From assembly GCA_016866785.1 (NCBI GenBank), contig VGLH01000031.1:1-34894 (forward strand): 34,894 nt of DNA. Reading direction: 5' to 3'. A model generated the notes under the pieces. That model searched no databases. It was not told the DNA's origin and was given only the letters and a program-made list of their open reading frames with translations. Positions 18,923 to 29,203 of this stretch are shown here, in pieces; the first letter of the stretch is position 1, and each line of letters begins with the position of its first letter. The position numbers were made by a program, and so were the translations under genes. The stretch is from Candidatus Poribacteria bacterium. GTDB taxonomy: Bacteria > Poribacteria > WGA-4E > GCA-2687025.

Positions 18923-20284
18923 TCATCGTGCGCCAGACGCCTGCGCGCGGTTCCAGCAACATCGCTTGTACTTCCTGCCGCTTCCGCACGGACACGGGTC
19001 GTTTCGGCTAGAGCGCTGCCAGCGTGCCTCCGATTCCCGGATGCGCTTGCGCTCCGCGAGGAGCTGCATGATCTGCGACGCGGGTTGCCCCCGCTCGACC
19101 AGCCGCGCCATCTCCTTCATGTAAGGGTCAATGTGCCGGAAGAACCGTTTGTACCCTGCGCACAGGTAGTTCAGACCCGGCTCGCCGTCGGGCGTGGTGA
19201 GAAAACGGTGCTTCGGACACTCACCATGGCACGCGAAGCGCACATCGCACTCGCGGCAGTAGCGAGGCAGAGCTTCCCGCTTGTCGTCACCGAATCGCCT
19301 CTGTTGGGGCGAATCGACGAGCTCTCGCATCGGCGCATCGGTGATGTTGCCGACTCGGTGCTCCGGGTAGACGTAGTGGTCGCAGGCGTAGAGGTCGCCG
19401 TTGTGCTCCAGCGCCAGGGCGTTGCCGCACGTCTCGCCGAACACGCACATCGCCGATGGCAGTCCGAGCCAGATGCCCAACTGGACATCGAAAAGCTGAA
19501 CGTAGACCGATCCGACGTCATGACGCACCCACTCGTCGAAGATCGCCGATAGGAAGTCCCCGAACGCGACGGGTTCGACGCTCCAGGGCGTGGCGATCTG
19601 CCCCGCCTCCTCCGGCTGGCTGAGCGCGGGCGGCGGCGCGAGCGTGAGCAGTCCATCGGGGGGGGCGGCGCGCTCGACCAGCGGGATGAACTGCATGTAC
19701 CCCGACCCGTGCTCCTTGAGGAACGAGTAGACCTCAAGGGGGTGCCGGGAGTTGACGCGGTTCACGACGGTCAACGTGTTGAACTCGACCCGATAGCGCT
19801 TGAGCAGCTCGATCCCTCGCATCACGAGGTCGAACGTCGGCTGTCCCTGCTTGTCGACGCGGTACCGGTCGTGTAGGTGGCGGGGCCCGTCGATGCTGAC
19901 GCCGACGAGGAACCGGTTCTCGGCGAGAAACGCGCACCATTCGTCGTCGAGTAATGTCGCGTTGGTCTGGAACGCGTTAGCGATCCGCTTGTCCGGTGGG
20001 CAGTGCTGCGCTTGGAGCTCGACGACGCGTCGGAAGAAGTCGACGCCCATGAGCGTCGGCTCTCCGCCCTGCCATGCGAAGTGGATTTCGGATCCCGGCT
20101 GCGACTCGATGTACTGCGATACGTAGGCTTCGAGAACCTCACTGCTCATCCTGAACCGATTGCGCGGCGGGTAGAGCGCTTCCTTCTCGAGATAGAAGCA
20201 GTACTTGCAGTCCAGATTGCAGAGGGGCCCGATGGGCTTCGCCATCACGTGGTAGGGCACCCCTACCGATGTGGAATGATTCAT
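18923..20284 (-). CDS. Radical SAM anaerobic sulfatase maturase with C-terminal SEC-C motif
   Basis: A 453-residue anSME-type enzyme that converts the active-site Cys or Ser of sulfatases to formylglycine. MAKPIGPLCNLDCKYCFYLEK carries the radical-SAM CX3CX2C at C22, C26 and C29, and EIHFAWQGGEPTLMG follows. The SPASM region carries further cluster Cys (CVFGETCGN, YACDHYVYPEHRVGNI, CRECDVRFACHGECPKHR). The protein ends with RNDPCPCGSGRKYKRCC, a SEC-C zinc motif. ATG 20284 lies 7 bp after the rfbB stop and has a weak GAG-type SD; ATG 20305 would add seven residues. The only sulfatase in this window is a 5' stub at 24122, so its partners lie elsewhere. Confidence 0.92.
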   Translation of the reverse strand: MNHSTSVGVPYHVMAKPIGPLCNLDCKYCFYLEKEALYPPRNRFRMSSEVLEAYVSQYIESQPGSEIHFAWQGGEPTLMGVDFFRRVVELQAQHCPPDKRIANAFQTNATLLDDEWCAFLAENRFLVGVSIDGPRHLHDRYRVDKQGQPTFDLVMRGIELLKRYRVEFNTLTVVNRVNSRHPLEVYSFLKEHGSGYMQFIPLVERAAPPDGLLTLAPPPALSQPEEAGQIATPWSVEPVAFGDFLSAIFDEWVRHDVGSVYVQLFDVQLGIWLGLPSAMCVFGETCGNALALEHNGDLYACDHYVYPEHRVGNITDAPMRELVDSPQQRRFGDDKREALPRYCRECDVRFACHGECPKHRFLTTPDGEPGLNYLCAGYKRFFRHIDPYMKEMARLVERGQPASQIMQLLAERKRIRESEARWQRSSRNDPCPCGSGRKYKRCCWNRAQASGAR

Positions 20285-20291
20285 CACGGTC

Positions 20292-21308
20292 TCACGCGTT
20301 ATCATCGCGTTGCGGCAAGACGCGCTCGATCCAGTCCGTGTTAGCGAGGTACCAATCGAGCGTGGACGCGAGCCCGGAGTCGAACGCTACGCGAGGTTCC
20401 CACCCGAGATCGGATCGCAGCTTAGACGCATCCAGCGCGTATCGGAAGTCGTGACCTGGGCGATCCGGCACGAACGTGATGAGCCGGGCGTGAGTGCCCG
20501 CATCGGCGTTTGTCCGCTCGTCGATCAGCCGACAGAGCGCGTTCACCAGGTCGATGTTGCGCCACTCGTTGTTGCTGCCGACGCAGTAGGTCTCGCCGCC
20601 GGGAGCCGACTGGAAGATTCTGTCGATCGCGCGGCAGTGGTCCTCGACGTGGAGCCAGTCGCGCACGTTCGAGCCATCTCCGTAGACGGGCAGCGGCTGT
20701 CGGGCGAAGGCGCGACGGATCATGCGGGGGATGAACTTGTCCGGAAACTGGTACGGACCGTAGTTGTTGGAGCAGTGCGTCACTGTCGCGCGGATTCCGT
20801 AGGTGTGGGCGTACGCACGCACGAGATGGTCGCTGGCGGCTTTCGTCGCCGAGTACGGGTTGTCCGGGCGATACGGGGAGTTCTCGTGGAACACGCCGTC
20901 CTCGCCGAGCTGCCCGTAGACCTCGTCGGTGCTCACATGGTGGAACCGGCGGGCTCCGACCGCATGGCGTCGGAACGCCTCGAGCAGCGTGAACGTAGCG
21001 AGTACGTTGTCACGCAGCGTGGCTGCCGGATCACTGATGGATCGATCCACGTGGCTTTGAGCGGCGGCGTGAACGACTCCCTCGATCGGGTGCTCCGAGA
21101 ACACATTCAGAACGGTCGGCTCGTCGGCGACGTCGCCGCGTACGAATCGCAGTCGGTCGTGCTCGACGCAGCCGATCAGGTTCTCCGGCCGCGTGCCGTA
21201 CGCGAGGCGATCCATGGCGACGACCACGTCGTCCGGGTGGGCGGCGAGCCAATAGCGGACGAGGTTGGCTCCGATGAAACCGGCTCCGCCCGTGATCAGG
21301 ACGTGCAT
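20292..21308 (-). CDS. rfbB: dTDP-glucose 4,6-dehydratase
   Basis: A 338-residue extended SDR that converts dTDP-glucose to dTDP-4-keto-6-deoxyglucose. It has the NAD loop GGAGFIG (7-13), the RmlB-specific active site STDEVYG (T127, D128, E129), Y152-SAT-K156, the SNNYGPYQFPDK substrate loop and NVRDWLHVEDHCRAI. The start ATG 21308 has AGGGA upstream; a longer reading adds a non-homologous Arg-rich leader. Other dTDP-rhamnose genes (rfbA, C, D) are not nearby. It lies between a TPR gene and the sulfatase maturase, probably one transcript. Confidence 0.95.
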   Translation of the reverse strand: MHVLITGGAGFIGANLVRYWLAAHPDDVVVAMDRLAYGTRPENLIGCVEHDRLRFVRGDVADEPTVLNVFSEHPIEGVVHAAAQSHVDRSISDPAATLRDNVLATFTLLEAFRRHAVGARRFHHVSTDEVYGQLGEDGVFHENSPYRPDNPYSATKAASDHLVRAYAHTYGIRATVTHCSNNYGPYQFPDKFIPRMIRRAFARQPLPVYGDGSNVRDWLHVEDHCRAIDRIFQSAPGGETYCVGSNNEWRNIDLVNALCRLIDERTNADAGTHARLITFVPDRPGHDFRYALDASKLRSDLGWEPRVAFDSGLASTLDWYLANTDWIERVLPQRDDNA

Positions 21309-24091: not shown

Positions 24092-24121
24092 CCTGCGCGG
24101 AGATGTGACCGAAGGATGCCC

Positions 24122-24235
24122 ATGGACGAATCCCGTCAGACGCAGCGCCCCAACATCGTCGTCATTCTTGTCGACGACATGGGTTACCCGGATATCAGCC
24201 CGTTCGGCGGCGAGATCCACACACCTCATCTGCAG
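24122..24235 (+). pseudogene. Truncated sulfatase, N-terminal fragment only
   Basis: From ATG 24122 (GAAGGA 5 nt upstream) the frame encodes [20 protein letters not shown] followed by [10 protein letters not shown]. This is the first strand and metal-binding DD of type I sulfatases and the conserved GGxxxTPxL step. Homology stops abruptly after ~38 residues. The C-x-P/A-x-R formylglycine site, which should follow some tens of residues later, is absent. The frame runs on to 24601 but is only an antiphase reading of the sigma factor gene. No sulfatase 3' part is found in the window. The gene must have been cut by deletion or by arrival of the sigma-factor segment. Confidence 0.75.
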
Positions 24236-24287
24236 GCGGTCGGATTCAGCGTCGGTGCGAATGCGAACCGAAGCGCCGGACGGAGTC

Positions 24288-24315
24288 TTGTCGTGGGTCA
24301 TGTTAGGATTATGGT
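24288..24315 (+). promoter_or_regulatory. Candidate promoter of the ECF sigma gene
   Basis: TTGTCG (24288-24293), a 16-base spacer and TATGGT (24310-24315), just after the sulfatase break and 48 bases before the sigma factor ATG. It lies in a more AT-rich stretch than its surroundings. GGAAC, the usual -35 core of ECF-dependent promoters, occurs downstream at 24323 and 24354 but without a suitable -10. Confidence 0.35.
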
Positions 24316-24362
24316 GTCGAGAGGAACCTTATCTAAGAACACTCGCGCGGCCGGAACGTCGA

Positions 24363-25379
24363 ATGAAGATGCAGGACGAGGAACGTTGGGTGAACGACGC
24401 CTTGACCGGCTCGCACTCGGCGTTTCAGCGTCTTTACGACGCGTATCGAAAACCAATGCTTCGGTTCACGATGTCGCAAATCAACGACCTCGACGCGGCG
24501 TTGGACATCGTTCAAGCATCGTTTGTGATTGCGTGGCGCGATATGCATCGGTTGCGCAATCCAAAGCGATTCGGCGCATGGTTGATACGTATCGCGAGTA
24601 ATCTGACGAATCGTTGGCTTCGCAATCAGTATCGTCGCCGCCTTGAAACGTCGACGGACGACAGTGTTGCCATACAGACATATCGCCGAGACGAATTGCG
24701 TCAAGAGGTCTGGGACGCCATCGATGTGTTGCCTCCGAGAGAACGCGAATCGGTCGTTCTTCATTACATTATCGGCTACACCTACGACGAGGTAGCGAAC
24801 TTACTGCACGTTCCTGAAAGCACCGTGCTCGGTCGTCTGCAACGCGCTCGCAACCGATTGCGAGAGGAGTTCCAAGACATGGTCAAGCAACTTCGACTCG
24901 AACTCGACGCGACCGTATACGATGTCTTGCAGAAGCAAGCCGAACGCGAGAACACGACTACCGATTCGATGGCGACGCGCATCCTGGCGAAGTACGCAAC
25001 CACCCGATCATTGGACACGGACAACAAGACATTCGATTCGGACAGAATCCCAGTCGTCGCCGATCTGGACGTCGAACCTGCGCGAACTCTCGTTCGGCGG
25101 TTCTTCGAGGCGCTCGCCGCGTGCCGATATACCGAAGCGTCCACGCTGTCCTCACCGAACTACGACGATACGGACTGGTCGAAGAGCGGTCTCGTCTCGG
25201 TCGCTGGCGTGCTCGACATCGGCGAACCCTATCAGAAGCCCGACCGTCGATACGCCGCCGGATGCGGTGTCTTCGTGCCCTACGCCGTCGCGATGTACGA
25301 TGGCTCCGTGCGACGCTTTCGAGCCGCCGTCCGCTGCGACAATCCTAACCGCGAATGGCGACTCGACGGCGGTATCTGA
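24363..25379 (+). CDS. ECF-type RNA polymerase sigma factor with RHH-like segment and NTF2-like C-terminus
   Basis: A 338-residue sigma70-family protein; usual ECF factors are ~180 residues. Region 2 spans ~10-95 ([42 protein letters not shown]), and region 4 spans ~112-170 ([20 protein letters not shown], then [17 protein letters not shown]). Residues 176-212 ([20 protein letters not shown], then [16 protein letters not shown]) match the strand-helix-helix pattern of Arc-type ribbon-helix-helix proteins. Residues 239-338 resemble an NTF2/SnoaL-like domain ([34 protein letters not shown]). Base composition is clearly less GC-rich than its neighbours and codons are less biased, suggesting transfer. 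No anti-sigma gene is adjacent. ATG 24363 is the best start; earlier in-frame starts lack homology. Confidence 0.85.
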
Positions 25380-25796: not shown

Positions 25797-26561
25797 ATGG
25801 CTCGTCGGCGACGCCCGATACGCACTCTCGTGGCTGCACTCGCCTTGGTCGCCATCGGGCTGCCCCTGTGGGCAGCCATCGACGACTCCGTCGTGCTCTA
25901 CCTGCCCTTGGACGATGCCAAGGGGAACACGACGTCCGATCTGTCCAACGCGAAGAACCCCGCAGAGCTCGTCAACAACCCATCGTTGGTCGACGGCAAG
26001 ATCGGCAAAGCGATGTCGTTCGAGGGTGGGAAGTCGACCCACGTCAAGGTGCCCATCACCGACGCGCTCCAGCTCAACGAGAAGTTCTCTGTCGCTTTCT
26101 GGGTGAAGCGAGCCGAGAACCAGATCAGCGACTGGAACTACATGGTCGCCGGCGGCACGCTGAAATGGGCGGTCATCTACAATCGGAACCAGAATGTCTA
26201 CGTGTGGTCTACGTCGGGCGGCGGATGGGCTCAGAAAGCCGTCACGACGAAGCCGTTGACCACGACCTGGACGCACGTTGCCGTGACCCACGATACGTCG
26301 AAGGGCGTCAGCATCTACTTCGACGCGGCGTTGGCTGGCGAGGGCGGCAAGCCGCCCAAGGTGGACGCGACAGACGGCGCCATCATGGTCGGGGCCCGCA
26401 ACCCGGGGCAGGAGTTCTTCACCGGCATCATCGATGACGTTTTCCTATTTAACCGAGTCATCAGCCTCGACGAGATCAAGACGATCCAAGCAGGGACGTA
26501 CCTCGCCGTCGAGTCCGTCGGCAAGGCGACGGTGCGATGGGCAGAGCTGAAGCGGCACTAG
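25797..26561 (+). CDS. Secreted LamG (concanavalin-like) domain protein with WxxLK tail
   Basis: A 254-residue exported protein. The signal peptide is MARRRRPIRT plus a hydrophobic core to about residue 27. One LamG/Laminin_G_3 jelly-roll follows (~30-228): VVLYLPLDDAKGNTTSDLS, GKAMSFEGGKSTHVKVP, KFSVAFWVKRAENQ, WTHVAVTHDTSKGVSIYFD, and TGIIDDVFLFNRVISLDEI. These domains bind glycans or calcium-dependent ligands. The last 18 residues, AVESVGKATVRWAELKRH, recur in the two downstream secreted proteins. ATG 25797 is chosen over GTG 25791 because AAGGAGG is 6 nt before the ATG. It is the first gene of the operon. Confidence 0.88.
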   Translation: MARRRRPIRTLVAALALVAIGLPLWAAIDDSVVLYLPLDDAKGNTTSDLSNAKNPAELVNNPSLVDGKIGKAMSFEGGKSTHVKVPITDALQLNEKFSVAFWVKRAENQISDWNYMVAGGTLKWAVIYNRNQNVYVWSTSGGGWAQKAVTTKPLTTTWTHVAVTHDTSKGVSIYFDAALAGEGGKPPKVDATDGAIMVGARNPGQEFFTGIIDDVFLFNRVISLDEIKTIQAGTYLAVESVGKATVRWAELKRH

Positions 26562-26581
26562 CTCCTGACGCGCATCGGCGC

Positions 26582-27961
26582 ATGGGGCGTTGGATCCGAG
26601 CGTCGTTCTGCTTCTGTGCCCTGCTACTAGCGGTCGCGGACGCCGGGGCTACGCCCACTCAGTATCAGCAGCAGCGCGCTGAGTTGGAGTCGGAAGTCGC
26701 TCTCTCGACCGGGTCATACGGGGCGCGTCTTCGATTGGGCGTGCTCCATCGCCAGGCGGGGTTCCCGCAACGAGCGATTGCCCCCCTGCTTGCCGCGCTC
26801 GAGCTCGATGCGACGAGCTCTGCCGCGCGGACCGAGCTCGCTGCCGCTTACGCCGAAGTGGGCGACTACGCTGCGGCGTCAAGAGAGCTCACACACGTCC
26901 TCGATTCGGATCCGCTCAATGTCCAAGCGCTGATCCAGCTCGGGGTCGTCCGCAGCGAGCAGAGGCAGTACGCAGAAGCCGAGAAAGCGTATCGGCGCGC
27001 GGTCGCAGCCGATCCTCTCGCGTTCGCTCCGCATCTGGACCTGGGAATCCTGACGCTCCGACAAGGAAAGCTCGCGGAGTCGGCGACTGCGTTTGCGCGA
27101 GCTGCCGAGATCGACTCATCGTCCGCGGATGCCTGGACCGGCTTGGGCGACGTGAGATTGAGGCAGAACGATCTGGACGGGGCTTCGCGTGCTTACGAGT
27201 CCGCCGTTCGGACGGAACCGGCGGCGGCGCTGGCTCTCTACGGTCAGGGGCGCGTCGCGATGAGGCGCTCGCGGTTCGGGGATGCGCTGGCGGCTTTTTC
27301 GCGTGCGGCGTCGGTTCAGCCCGACTATGCCGACGCTGTGTACGGCATGTCGCAGGCGTTGCGTCGGCTCGGTCGAGAGTCCGACGCCGAGGAGGCGTCC
27401 ACACGCTTCGAGCGCCTGCGAGTCACCGAAGCGCTGTTGCTGCGGGCGGATGAGCACGCGCGGCTGAACCCCGACGATGCGCGCAGTCAGGCGAGCCTCG
27501 GAGCGGTTCACATGACGCGCGGCAGGTACGACCTGGCTTCCCGCGCGTTCCTTGCCGCGATCGAGCTCCGCGCTGACGATGGCGGTCTGTGGCACAACCT
27601 CGGGCTCGCCTACACGAAGCTCATGGAGCCGGGTCAGGCGGTCACGGCATACCGGCGCGCCGTCGAGTTGTCCCCTGAGCTGGCGTCGGCGCGCAACAAC
27701 CTGGCGCTGTTGCTCGCCGAACAGGAGTCCTCGCTGGACGAGGCGCTGAGGCATGCGACGGCGGCGACGAACATGGAACCAGCGAACGCGAACTACTGGG
27801 ACACGCTCGCCACCGTGCACTGGGCGCGCCACGACGCGAACGCGGCACGTGCGGCGGCGAAGCGCGGGCTTTCGCTGAATCCCGACGATGAGACGCTACG
27901 GCTGCGGTTCGAGGAACTGATGCGGACGACGTCTGGGCCCAGCCGACGAAAGGAACCATGA
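26582..27961 (+). CDS. Exported tetratricopeptide repeat protein
   Basis: A 459-residue protein with a signal peptide (MGRWIRASFCFCALLLAVADAG, cleavage probably near residue 23). About ten TPR units follow almost to the end, for example LRLGVLHRQAGFPQRAIAPL, IQLGVVRSEQRQYAEAEKAY, LGILTLRQGKLAESATAFAR and NLGLAYTKLMEPGQAVTAYR, each followed by the next helix. ATG 26582 is preferred because it starts the signal peptide; an earlier ATG at 26537 overlaps the LamG gene. Its stop is in an ATGATG overlap with the next gene. It lacks the shared C-terminal tail of its neighbours and may be a periplasmic scaffold or receptor for them, which is speculation. Confidence 0.87.
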   Translation: MGRWIRASFCFCALLLAVADAGATPTQYQQQRAELESEVALSTGSYGARLRLGVLHRQAGFPQRAIAPLLAALELDATSSAARTELAAAYAEVGDYAAASRELTHVLDSDPLNVQALIQLGVVRSEQRQYAEAEKAYRRAVAADPLAFAPHLDLGILTLRQGKLAESATAFARAAEIDSSSADAWTGLGDVRLRQNDLDGASRAYESAVRTEPAAALALYGQGRVAMRRSRFGDALAAFSRAASVQPDYADAVYGMSQALRRLGRESDAEEASTRFERLRVTEALLLRADEHARLNPDDARSQASLGAVHMTRGRYDLASRAFLAAIELRADDGGLWHNLGLAYTKLMEPGQAVTAYRRAVELSPELASARNNLALLLAEQESSLDEALRHATAATNMEPANANYWDTLATVHWARHDANAARAAAKRGLSLNPDDETLRLRFEELMRTTSGPSRRKEP

Positions 27962-28599
27962 TGCGTACACGTATTTCGAGTTTGGCATGGCTCTGTGCTG
28001 CTTTGGCTCTGGGCGGGGTGGCTCAGGCGTGGGCGGTTGGTGTCGATGTGGGACCGGAGTGGCTGTTCGAGACGAAGGACGACGAGAAAGAGCTCCTCCA
28101 GTGGGGGGCGATCAACCAGCTCGCGCCGCTGGACATCGACCAGGTCACGGATGCCAAGAAGAACAAGCGCGGGGTCCTGCTCACCGAGTCGCTCGGCGGG
28201 GACCCGTACATGTTCCCGGGAGGCAACTGGAACGTCGCCGACTATGAGCCATTCAACGGCAAGAAGAACAAGACGCTCTACATGGGCCTTCGGGTCAACA
28301 TGGCGAACACGTGGCAGATCTACTACGTGACGACGAAGGACGGCGCTTGGGGCGAGGTCATGCGACAGAACTTCGATGTCGCGATGGCGGCGGACTTCCA
28401 GGACATCGAGGTCGTCCTAGAGCGCGGCGGATGGCAGGATAGCGACATCAAAGGATTCCGCATCGACCCGGGCACCGCCGCCGGCGTCAAGGCGGAGATC
28501 GACTACATCTCGTTCGTTGGCAGGCCGGAAGGCGCGAAAGCCGTTGATCCCGTTGGGAGACCAGCCGTCGCGTGGGGAGCCCTCAAGGCGGAACGATAG
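27958..28599 (+). CDS. Secreted beta-sandwich protein A (galactose-binding-like) with WxxLK tail
   Basis: A 213-residue protein with a signal peptide (residues 1-26, ...LGGVAQAWA). The mature part has DPYMFPGGNWNVADYEPFNG, KTLYMGLRVNMANTWQIYYV, AWGEVMRQNFDV, ERGGWQDSDIKGFRIDPGTA and AEIDYISF. This pattern fits galactose-binding-like jelly-rolls in environmental secreted proteins that read DPY...LRLDP...EIDYI. It is a close paralogue of the next gene. The C-terminus is AVDPVGRPAVAWGALKAER. It starts in an ATGA overlap with the TPR gene; AGGA precedes it. No catalytic residues can be named; a binding role is likely. Confidence 0.85.
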   Translation: MMRTRISSLAWLCAALALGGVAQAWAVGVDVGPEWLFETKDDEKELLQWGAINQLAPLDIDQVTDAKKNKRGVLLTESLGGDPYMFPGGNWNVADYEPFNGKKNKTLYMGLRVNMANTWQIYYVTTKDGAWGEVMRQNFDVAMAADFQDIEVVLERGGWQDSDIKGFRIDPGTAAGVKAEIDYISFVGRPEGAKAVDPVGRPAVAWGALKAER

Positions 28600-28630
28600 G
28601 TTCGGTGGAGATCACAAAGGAGGAGTGAGC

Positions 28631-29203
28631 ATGCATGGAGTAGTGTCGCTGACAGCAGCCGCGCTCTTTTCGCTGTCGATGGCAGTGAACGCGGCGCCGA
28701 AGTGGACGTTCGACAAGGCATCCGACATCGAGGGATGGACGGCGGTCAACCAGACCGCTCTCTCGGTCGAGGCAGGCGTCCTGAAGGTCGCGGCATCGAC
28801 CGGCGCGGACCCCTACTTCTTCCCCGGCGGCGAGTGGAACAAGGTCTCGTATGAGACCTTCAGCGGGAAGGCGTTCCCGACCCTGTACATGCGGCTCAAG
28901 ACGTCGCCCGCGAGCACGTGGCAGATCTACTACATCACCGTCGAAGATACGGCTTGGGGGGAAGTCCAGCGCCAGAACTTTGATGTCGCCGACACCGGAG
29001 GCTCGTTCAAGGACATCACGGTGAAAATGGAGCGCGGCGGCTGGCAGGAGCACAACGTGAAGGTGTTCCGCCTCGATCCGGGCACAGCGGCGGGGGTCTC
29101 CGCCGAGATCGACTACCTCGGATTCGAGCCGATGACGACGACGGCAGTTCAGCCGGACGGCAAAGCCGCCGCGACTTGGGCAGAGCTGAAGGGCATGAGG
29201 TAG
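28631..29203 (+). CDS. Secreted beta-sandwich protein B, paralogue of A, with WxxLK tail
   Basis: A 190-residue protein with a signal peptide (MHGVVSLTAAALFSLSMAVN, ~22 residues). It shares with protein A the blocks DPYFFPGGEWNKVSYETFSG, TLYMRLKTSPASTWQIYYIT, AWGEVQRQNFDVAD, ERGGWQEHNVKVFRLDPGTA and AEIDYLGF, so it arose by tandem duplication. It is shorter because the N-terminal insert of A is missing (here WTFDKASDIEGWTAVNQTAL). It ends AVQPDGKAAATWAELKGMR. ATG 28631 has a strong AAAGGAGGAG SD; the open frame extends upstream inside gene A without support. It is the last gene of the operon and is followed by a strong hairpin. Confidence 0.86.
   Translation: MHGVVSLTAAALFSLSMAVNAAPKWTFDKASDIEGWTAVNQTALSVEAGVLKVAASTGADPYFFPGGEWNKVSYETFSGKAFPTLYMRLKTSPASTWQIYYITVEDTAWGEVQRQNFDVADTGGSFKDITVKMERGGWQEHNVKVFRLDPGTAAGVSAEIDYLGFEPMTTTAVQPDGKAAATWAELKGMR

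Follow-up and report, generated by a model that had tools for sequence, protein, structure and literature searches.

Why should three secreted proteins encoded by one bacterial operon end in the same short sequence? The question is raised by a stretch of 34,894 nucleotides (the window), which is contig C31 (VGLH01000031.1) of a Candidatus Poribacteria genome (assembly GCA_016866785.1; 4.35 Mb, 95% complete). An initial annotation had suspected that the shared C-terminal tail is an undescribed sorting or anchoring tag. As described below, the tail is a real, conserved and phylum-restricted C-terminal peptide of exported proteins, and it does not depend on the type of domain that it follows. To this extent the suspicion stands as an observation, whereas the sorting or anchoring role is something that we infer. 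We think, with a probability of roughly 0.7, that once Sec has exported a protein, the tail acts as a C-terminal signal, specific to Poribacteria, for its sorting or for its docking at the surface.

The Three Tails in the Operon

The first of the three proteins is a secreted LamG-domain protein (25797..26561, plus strand), which has the signal peptide MARRRRPIRTLVAALALVAIGLPLWA and the C-terminus AVESVGKATVRWAELKRH. Its tail, LAVESVGKATVRWAELKRH, is encoded at 26502..26558 on the same strand, with the stop codon reaching 26561, and scores 34.3 bits against a profile of such tails (E 1.8e-7 in a search of its own genome). The PF13385 match (E 6e-26) covers residues 80-230 of 256 and stops there, so the tail lies outside the LamG domain. 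Protein A (27958..28599, plus strand) is a secreted beta-sandwich protein for which the Pfam and NCBIfam searches gave no match; it ends in AVDPVGRPAVAWGALKAER, and its tail KAVDPVGRPAVAWGALKAER is at 28537..28596 (plus strand, stop to 28599; 30.7 bits, E 2.4e-6). Protein B (28631..29203, plus strand) is also secreted and, from an AlphaFold2 model and fold comparison, is predicted to be a CBM-like (carbohydrate-binding module) beta-sandwich. It ends in AVQPDGKAAATWAELKGMR, with the tail TAVQPDGKAAATWAELKGMR at 29141..29200 (plus strand, stop to 29203; 37.3 bits, E 2e-8).

The coordinates of the open reading frames (ORFs) and the profile matches agree with the initial annotation on where the three tails are. 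It had also argued that, since the LamG domain is unrelated to the A/B fold, duplication does not explain the presence of the tail on both. A and B are paralogues with 51% identity, and the window alone therefore supplies two independent domain types and not three.

Extent and Conservation of the Tail

The tail is found far beyond the window. As a query, the LamG protein matches the genome that encodes it at 44 places, and nearly all of the relatives inspected have the tail. A tail profile of 20 positions, built from 39 tails, gives 110 matches in the whole genome, 88 of them with an E value of 0.001 or better. About 1.48 Mb of the 4.35 Mb were read (first 1.13 Mb, then 1.48 Mb), and about 105 ORFs with a C-terminal tail are present there, with 98 of all the profile matches in this sequence scoring at least 14 bits; because this sequence was picked around tail loci and around loci of the PorV family (discussed below), the ratio of 105 to 1,240 genes is not a genome-wide frequency. 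The same profile gives no matches on reversed ORFs, and none of at least 14 bits on shuffled ORFs.

The position of the tail is as telling as its number. The pattern W[AG]x[LIMV][KR] occurs 127 times in the 1,240 crude gene calls, and 95 of these occurrences are within the last 16 residues, where 5.7 would be expected (p = 3e-99), which rules out a chance origin. The distance from the conserved Trp to the stop is 5-9 residues in nearly all tails and 11-14 in a few. Profile matches away from the C-terminus are weak (about 10 bits), with one exception of 17.6 bits that has its Trp at a distance of 27 residues from the end, and there is no convincing internal copy.

The tails can be summarized by the pattern [LT]-A-V-[EDSQ]-P-x-G-K-[LA]-[AT]-[TA]-T-W-[GA]-x-[LMI]-[KR]-x(1-4)-stop. 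When 104 tails are aligned on the Trp as position 0, leaving out those that lack it, the N-terminal side has A or P at -11, V at -10 (98 tails), E, D, S or Q at -9, P at -8 (88), G at -6 (76) and K or R at -5 (95). Closer to the Trp there are L or A at -4, A, P or T at -3, and T at both -2 and -1, and on its other side A or G at +1 (101), L, M or I at +3 and K or R at +4 (all 104). The conserved region is thus about 18-20 residues long, and conservation fades upstream of -13.

One close homologue of the tail proteins (G000:C119:2635-3156, minus strand) has lost the Trp of the tail and reads AVSAAGNLAVELGRLKRGR; it is possibly a decayed tag.

A repeat that spread recently at the DNA level, or recombination between gene ends, might produce many similar termini that have no function, and the 23 adjacent pairs of tail genes do mean that local duplication happens. 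However, pairwise nucleotide identity among the tails is only 50%, and at four-fold sites it amounts to 0.42, as compared with 0.38 expected from codon usage, while the V, P and K residues are near-invariant despite this near saturation. Synonymous sites have been nearly randomized and the peptide has been kept, which implies selection on the peptide and not on the DNA. This saturation, together with conservation throughout the phylum, rules out a recent spread of DNA, and we regard the explanation as refuted.

The tail is present in all 85 of the Poribacteria genomes searched, which represent 22 genera and 10 families, with 22 to at least 105 copies in each, and in other genera it reads AVEPSGKLATTWGxLKxx. 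Because the phylum search scored no more than about 105 candidates in any one genome, the high counts are lower bounds. It was found in none of 298 genomes outside the Poribacteria at E 1e-4, a broad sample of the domain in which the nearest sister phyla could not be selected. Among the genomes searched the tail is therefore Poribacteria-specific and phylum-wide. The search of the whole genome and its relatives, which the initial annotation had proposed as a check, has thus extended its observation from three proteins to a phylum.

Proteins That Carry the Tail

Once their tails are removed, the proteins that carry them form at least 36 clusters that are not significantly similar to one another (BLASTP, E 1e-4, 60 residues). 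LamG is the Pfam domain in 43 of 102. The other types include the 3-keto-disaccharide hydrolase (GH16-like), CBM_4_9, CBM9, NPCBM and GH43_C2, as well as BNR, Kelch and TolB/PD40 propellers, PKD, DUF362 and DUF4960. The spread over unrelated domains that the initial annotation had suspected from one operon is therefore seen in the genome at large, and a tail confined to LamG proteins and the relatives of A and B, which would have spoken against its suggestion, is not what was found.

Most of these proteins are predicted to be exported. By a simple rule, 78 of 98 tail genes encode a signal peptide as compared with 193 of 1032 other genes (odds ratio 17, p 2e-34), an enrichment that the initial annotation had asked about; a more lenient count, which accepts a usable signal peptide anywhere in the ORF, gives 94 of 105 tail ORFs. 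The signal peptides look like the signal-peptidase-I type (AxA). About nine N-termini showed a pattern that resembles a lipobox, in most cases within the hydrophobic core.

The tail could in principle be a structural element, namely the strand or helix with which each domain ends, as the initial annotation had recognized. A short separate helix is indeed predicted at the end of protein B (residues 183-188). However, the last core strand of the model extends to residue 164, residues 167-190 have a predicted local distance difference test score (pLDDT) below 50, and the tail is modeled as a low-confidence extension beyond the core. The best matches to the fold of B are mostly carbohydrate-binding modules, and they are weak, with template-modeling (TM) scores of about 0.4. 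Since the same sequence also follows at least 36 unrelated bodies and lies beyond the Pfam match of the LamG protein, we rejected an integral fold element as an explanation; it is already largely refuted and very improbable.

Comparison with Known Sorting Signals

The tail has no match in Pfam or NCBIfam, its profile matches PDB sequences at E ~1 only, and no description of it was found in the literature. By analogy, its closest functional parallels would be the C-terminal domains (CTDs) of the type IX secretion system (T9SS) and MYXO-CTERM. The T9SS type A CTD (TIGR04183) resembles the tail in being C-terminal and domain-independent, in occurring on tens of proteins with a signal peptide in each genome and in having a conserved Lys near the C-terminus, and both occur in the same genomes. 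Unlike the tail, it is a beta-sandwich domain (a 72-position profile) with YPNPFNP and WDG motifs, whereas the tail has about 20 residues and neither motif. The type A proteins and the tail proteins are disjoint sets with median lengths of 1087 and 255 residues, respectively, and a type A profile built from Poribacteria matches no tail protein. TIGR04183 is not among the 25 of 31 NCBIfam families listed for 102 tail proteins; the same is true of TIGR04131 (type B CTD), for which no dedicated search was made.

The type B CTD, with its PorP/SprF shuttles, provides a precedent for one translocon that serves a second class of signal with its own shuttle (PMC9143113, PMC12618676). However, it is a full domain that is often genetically linked to a shuttle gene, whereas for the tail no such linkage to genes of the PorV family was seen. 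Type A and type B signals are C-terminal beta-sandwiches of about 70 residues or more, which the conserved part of the tail is much too short to form. Tail proteins do share with T9SS cargo a Sec signal peptide combined with a C-terminal signal, in genomes that have a SprA-like translocon gene.

MYXO-CTERM, which is read by myxosortase, is like the tail one C-terminal tag that is universal in its phylum and present on dozens of proteins per genome (PMC11980579), but it has an invariant Cys, a transmembrane helix and an Arg-rich end. Only three of 105 tail proteins have a Cys in the last 30 residues. Because membership in both the T9SS CTDs and MYXO-CTERM fails on these defining features, we file the tail outside any named family.

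PEP-CTERM/exosortase, GlyGly-CTERM/rhombosortase and LPXTG/sortase also use a short C-terminal sorting region on unrelated signal-peptide proteins, but in these systems the region consists of a motif, a transmembrane helix and a basic cluster (PMC3237569). The tails have no LPXTG, no PEP motif and no T9SS CTD, as the initial annotation had stated for the three proteins of the window. Exosortase is present in three of the 85 Poribacteria genomes and was not found in this one; this distribution and the missing helix and motifs rule out exosortase and the tripartite tags.

Secretion Machinery and Gene Neighborhoods

Type A sorting domains were seen in Poribacteria by Kamke et al. (2014), who did not see the Por structural genes (PMC3909097). 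The T9SS parts reported here bear on that open point. A SprA-like gene is present in 84 of the 85 Poribacteria at E <0.001, one being over the curated 200-bit cut-off and the others weak but consistent; it is found in all 56 genomes of good quality and in none of 14 controls. The copy in this genome is split between the end of contig C3 and the start of contig C144 (L214 and L153; 57.8 and 150.6 bits). TIGR04183 type A CTDs are present in all 85 genomes, with 26 in this one. About 15 loci of the PorV family were found in this genome as well, and five of these exceed the cut-off. A PorU-like C25 protein of 1991 residues (NF033707, E 3.5e-94) has a type A CTD and its gene adjoins a PorV2-like gene. 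Several PorV-family genes directly adjoin genes for very large type A CTD proteins, an arrangement that suggests cognate shuttle-cargo pairs.

With SprA-like, PorV-family and PorU-like proteins present, the T9SS offers a route that tail proteins could take, and nothing specific ties the two together. One form that our preferred reading might take is that the tail is a short T9SS signal of a third class, which would be recognized at SprA so that its cargo is secreted or anchored like that of type A or B. The FadL-family shuttles of type A cargo differ from those of type B cargo (PMC9143113, PMC12618676), and deletion analysis in Porphyromonas gingivalis showed that a GFP fusion requires the last 22 residues of a CTD in order to be moved to the surface (PMC3120885). 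Known CTDs are, however, seven-stranded beta-sandwich domains (PMC10994853), and no tail protein has a type A CTD. PorV-like genes lie beside type A genes and rarely beside tail genes, which gives little support to the idea that the tail has a shuttle of the PorV type; the one such shuttle gene beside a tail gene is at a locus that also has a type A gene, and we rejected this candidate. The T9SS occurs in other phyla too, yet the tail was in none of the 298 genomes searched outside the Poribacteria. A SprA route with a dedicated shuttle is a tentative idea, if the most concrete candidate.

About as likely is a second form, in which the tail has no connection with the T9SS and binds a fixed envelope receptor non-covalently, as in cohesin-dockerin pairs, with the cargo reaching the surface by another route or staying in the periplasm. 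The want of a co-located shuttle and of a transmembrane helix fits such a docking tag, and the W..L-K end and the basic C-terminus would suit a binding peptide; however, no candidate receptor was found. This, too, we hold only tentatively.

A different explanation is that a periplasmic folding factor or protease, such as an exported TPR or PDZ protein, reads the tail as a chaperone or quality-control tag. TPR and PDZ domains classically bind free C-terminal peptides, and the operon in the window does encode an exported TPR-repeat protein (26582..27961, plus strand; TPR_2, E 3.5e-34), which ends in SRRKEP and, as the initial annotation had noted, lacks the tail. We prefer the start at 26582 to the one at 26537 because the signal peptide begins there (a start picked by a codon model). 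The initial annotation had proposed that this protein belongs to the machinery that recognizes the tail. However, for about 100 tail genes there are only three cases of an exported TPR gene at a distance of at most three genes, and so we dropped the TPR protein as a recognizer. The restriction of the tail to about 100 proteins, many of a similar beta-rich type, also argues against a quality-control tag, which we consider unlikely.

Several results count against a sorting or surface-docking signal. The tail has no membrane-retention helix; a window of 19 residues that resembles a helix was seen within the final 60 residues of only two of 105 tail proteins. Only one PorV-like gene adjoins a tail gene (on contig C29), and it lies between that gene and a type A gene. 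No receptor came to light, nor a processing enzyme of the kind that the initial annotation had proposed to look for, and among the neighbors of tail genes there is no recurrent candidate for either. By inspection, the genomes show no visible correlation between the number of tails and that of type A domains, both of which are lower bounds. Finally, the model of B is of low confidence (pLDDT 57.9, predicted TM score 0.57, from a three-sequence alignment), and that of the LamG protein has a pLDDT of 34.7, and thus the structural argument is informed by B only.

The recurrent neighbors of tail genes belong to sugar metabolism and include, as named by sequence inspection, Gfo/Idh-type dehydrogenases and sugar isomerase-like, enolase-superfamily and DegT-like proteins. 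Some other genes in the window were read by eye. An ECF-sigma-like (extracytoplasmic function) protein with an extra C-terminal region is encoded at 24340-25379 (plus strand, in the ORF 24105-25379), directly upstream of the LamG-TPR-A-B operon. The start of a sulfatase-like ORF at 24116-24290 (plus strand) breaks off into other sequence and looks like a truncated sulfatase that precedes the sigma-factor-like gene. A radical SAM gene that resembles sulfatase maturases is at 18923-20305 (minus strand).

Conclusions

If the tail is a sorting or surface-docking signal, we predict that one common envelope receptor would bind both the extended stretch AVxPxGK and the short helix W-[GA]-x-[LMI]-K in the periplasm, and would then move the cargo across the outer membrane or hold it on the cell surface. 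Because the cargo consists mainly of proteins with carbohydrate-binding and beta-propeller domains, the cell would thereby be covered in proteins that bind glycans. Poribacteria would then probably have a sorting system of their own, based on a phylum-universal C-terminal peptide of 20 residues with a near-invariant Trp and no membrane helix, in which about 100 proteins, glycan-binding ones among them, reach the surface by way of a dedicated receptor that possibly works together with SprA.

If this is true, the rules for C-terminal sorting tags would widen, as each of the known tags considered here for comparison includes a membrane helix or else a complete T9SS domain. An uncultured, sponge-associated phylum would have an undescribed address label on about 100 exported proteins per genome. 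For these symbionts, a large part of the surface proteome would then be predictable from sequence, including lectin-like proteins that could meet the glycans of the sponge.

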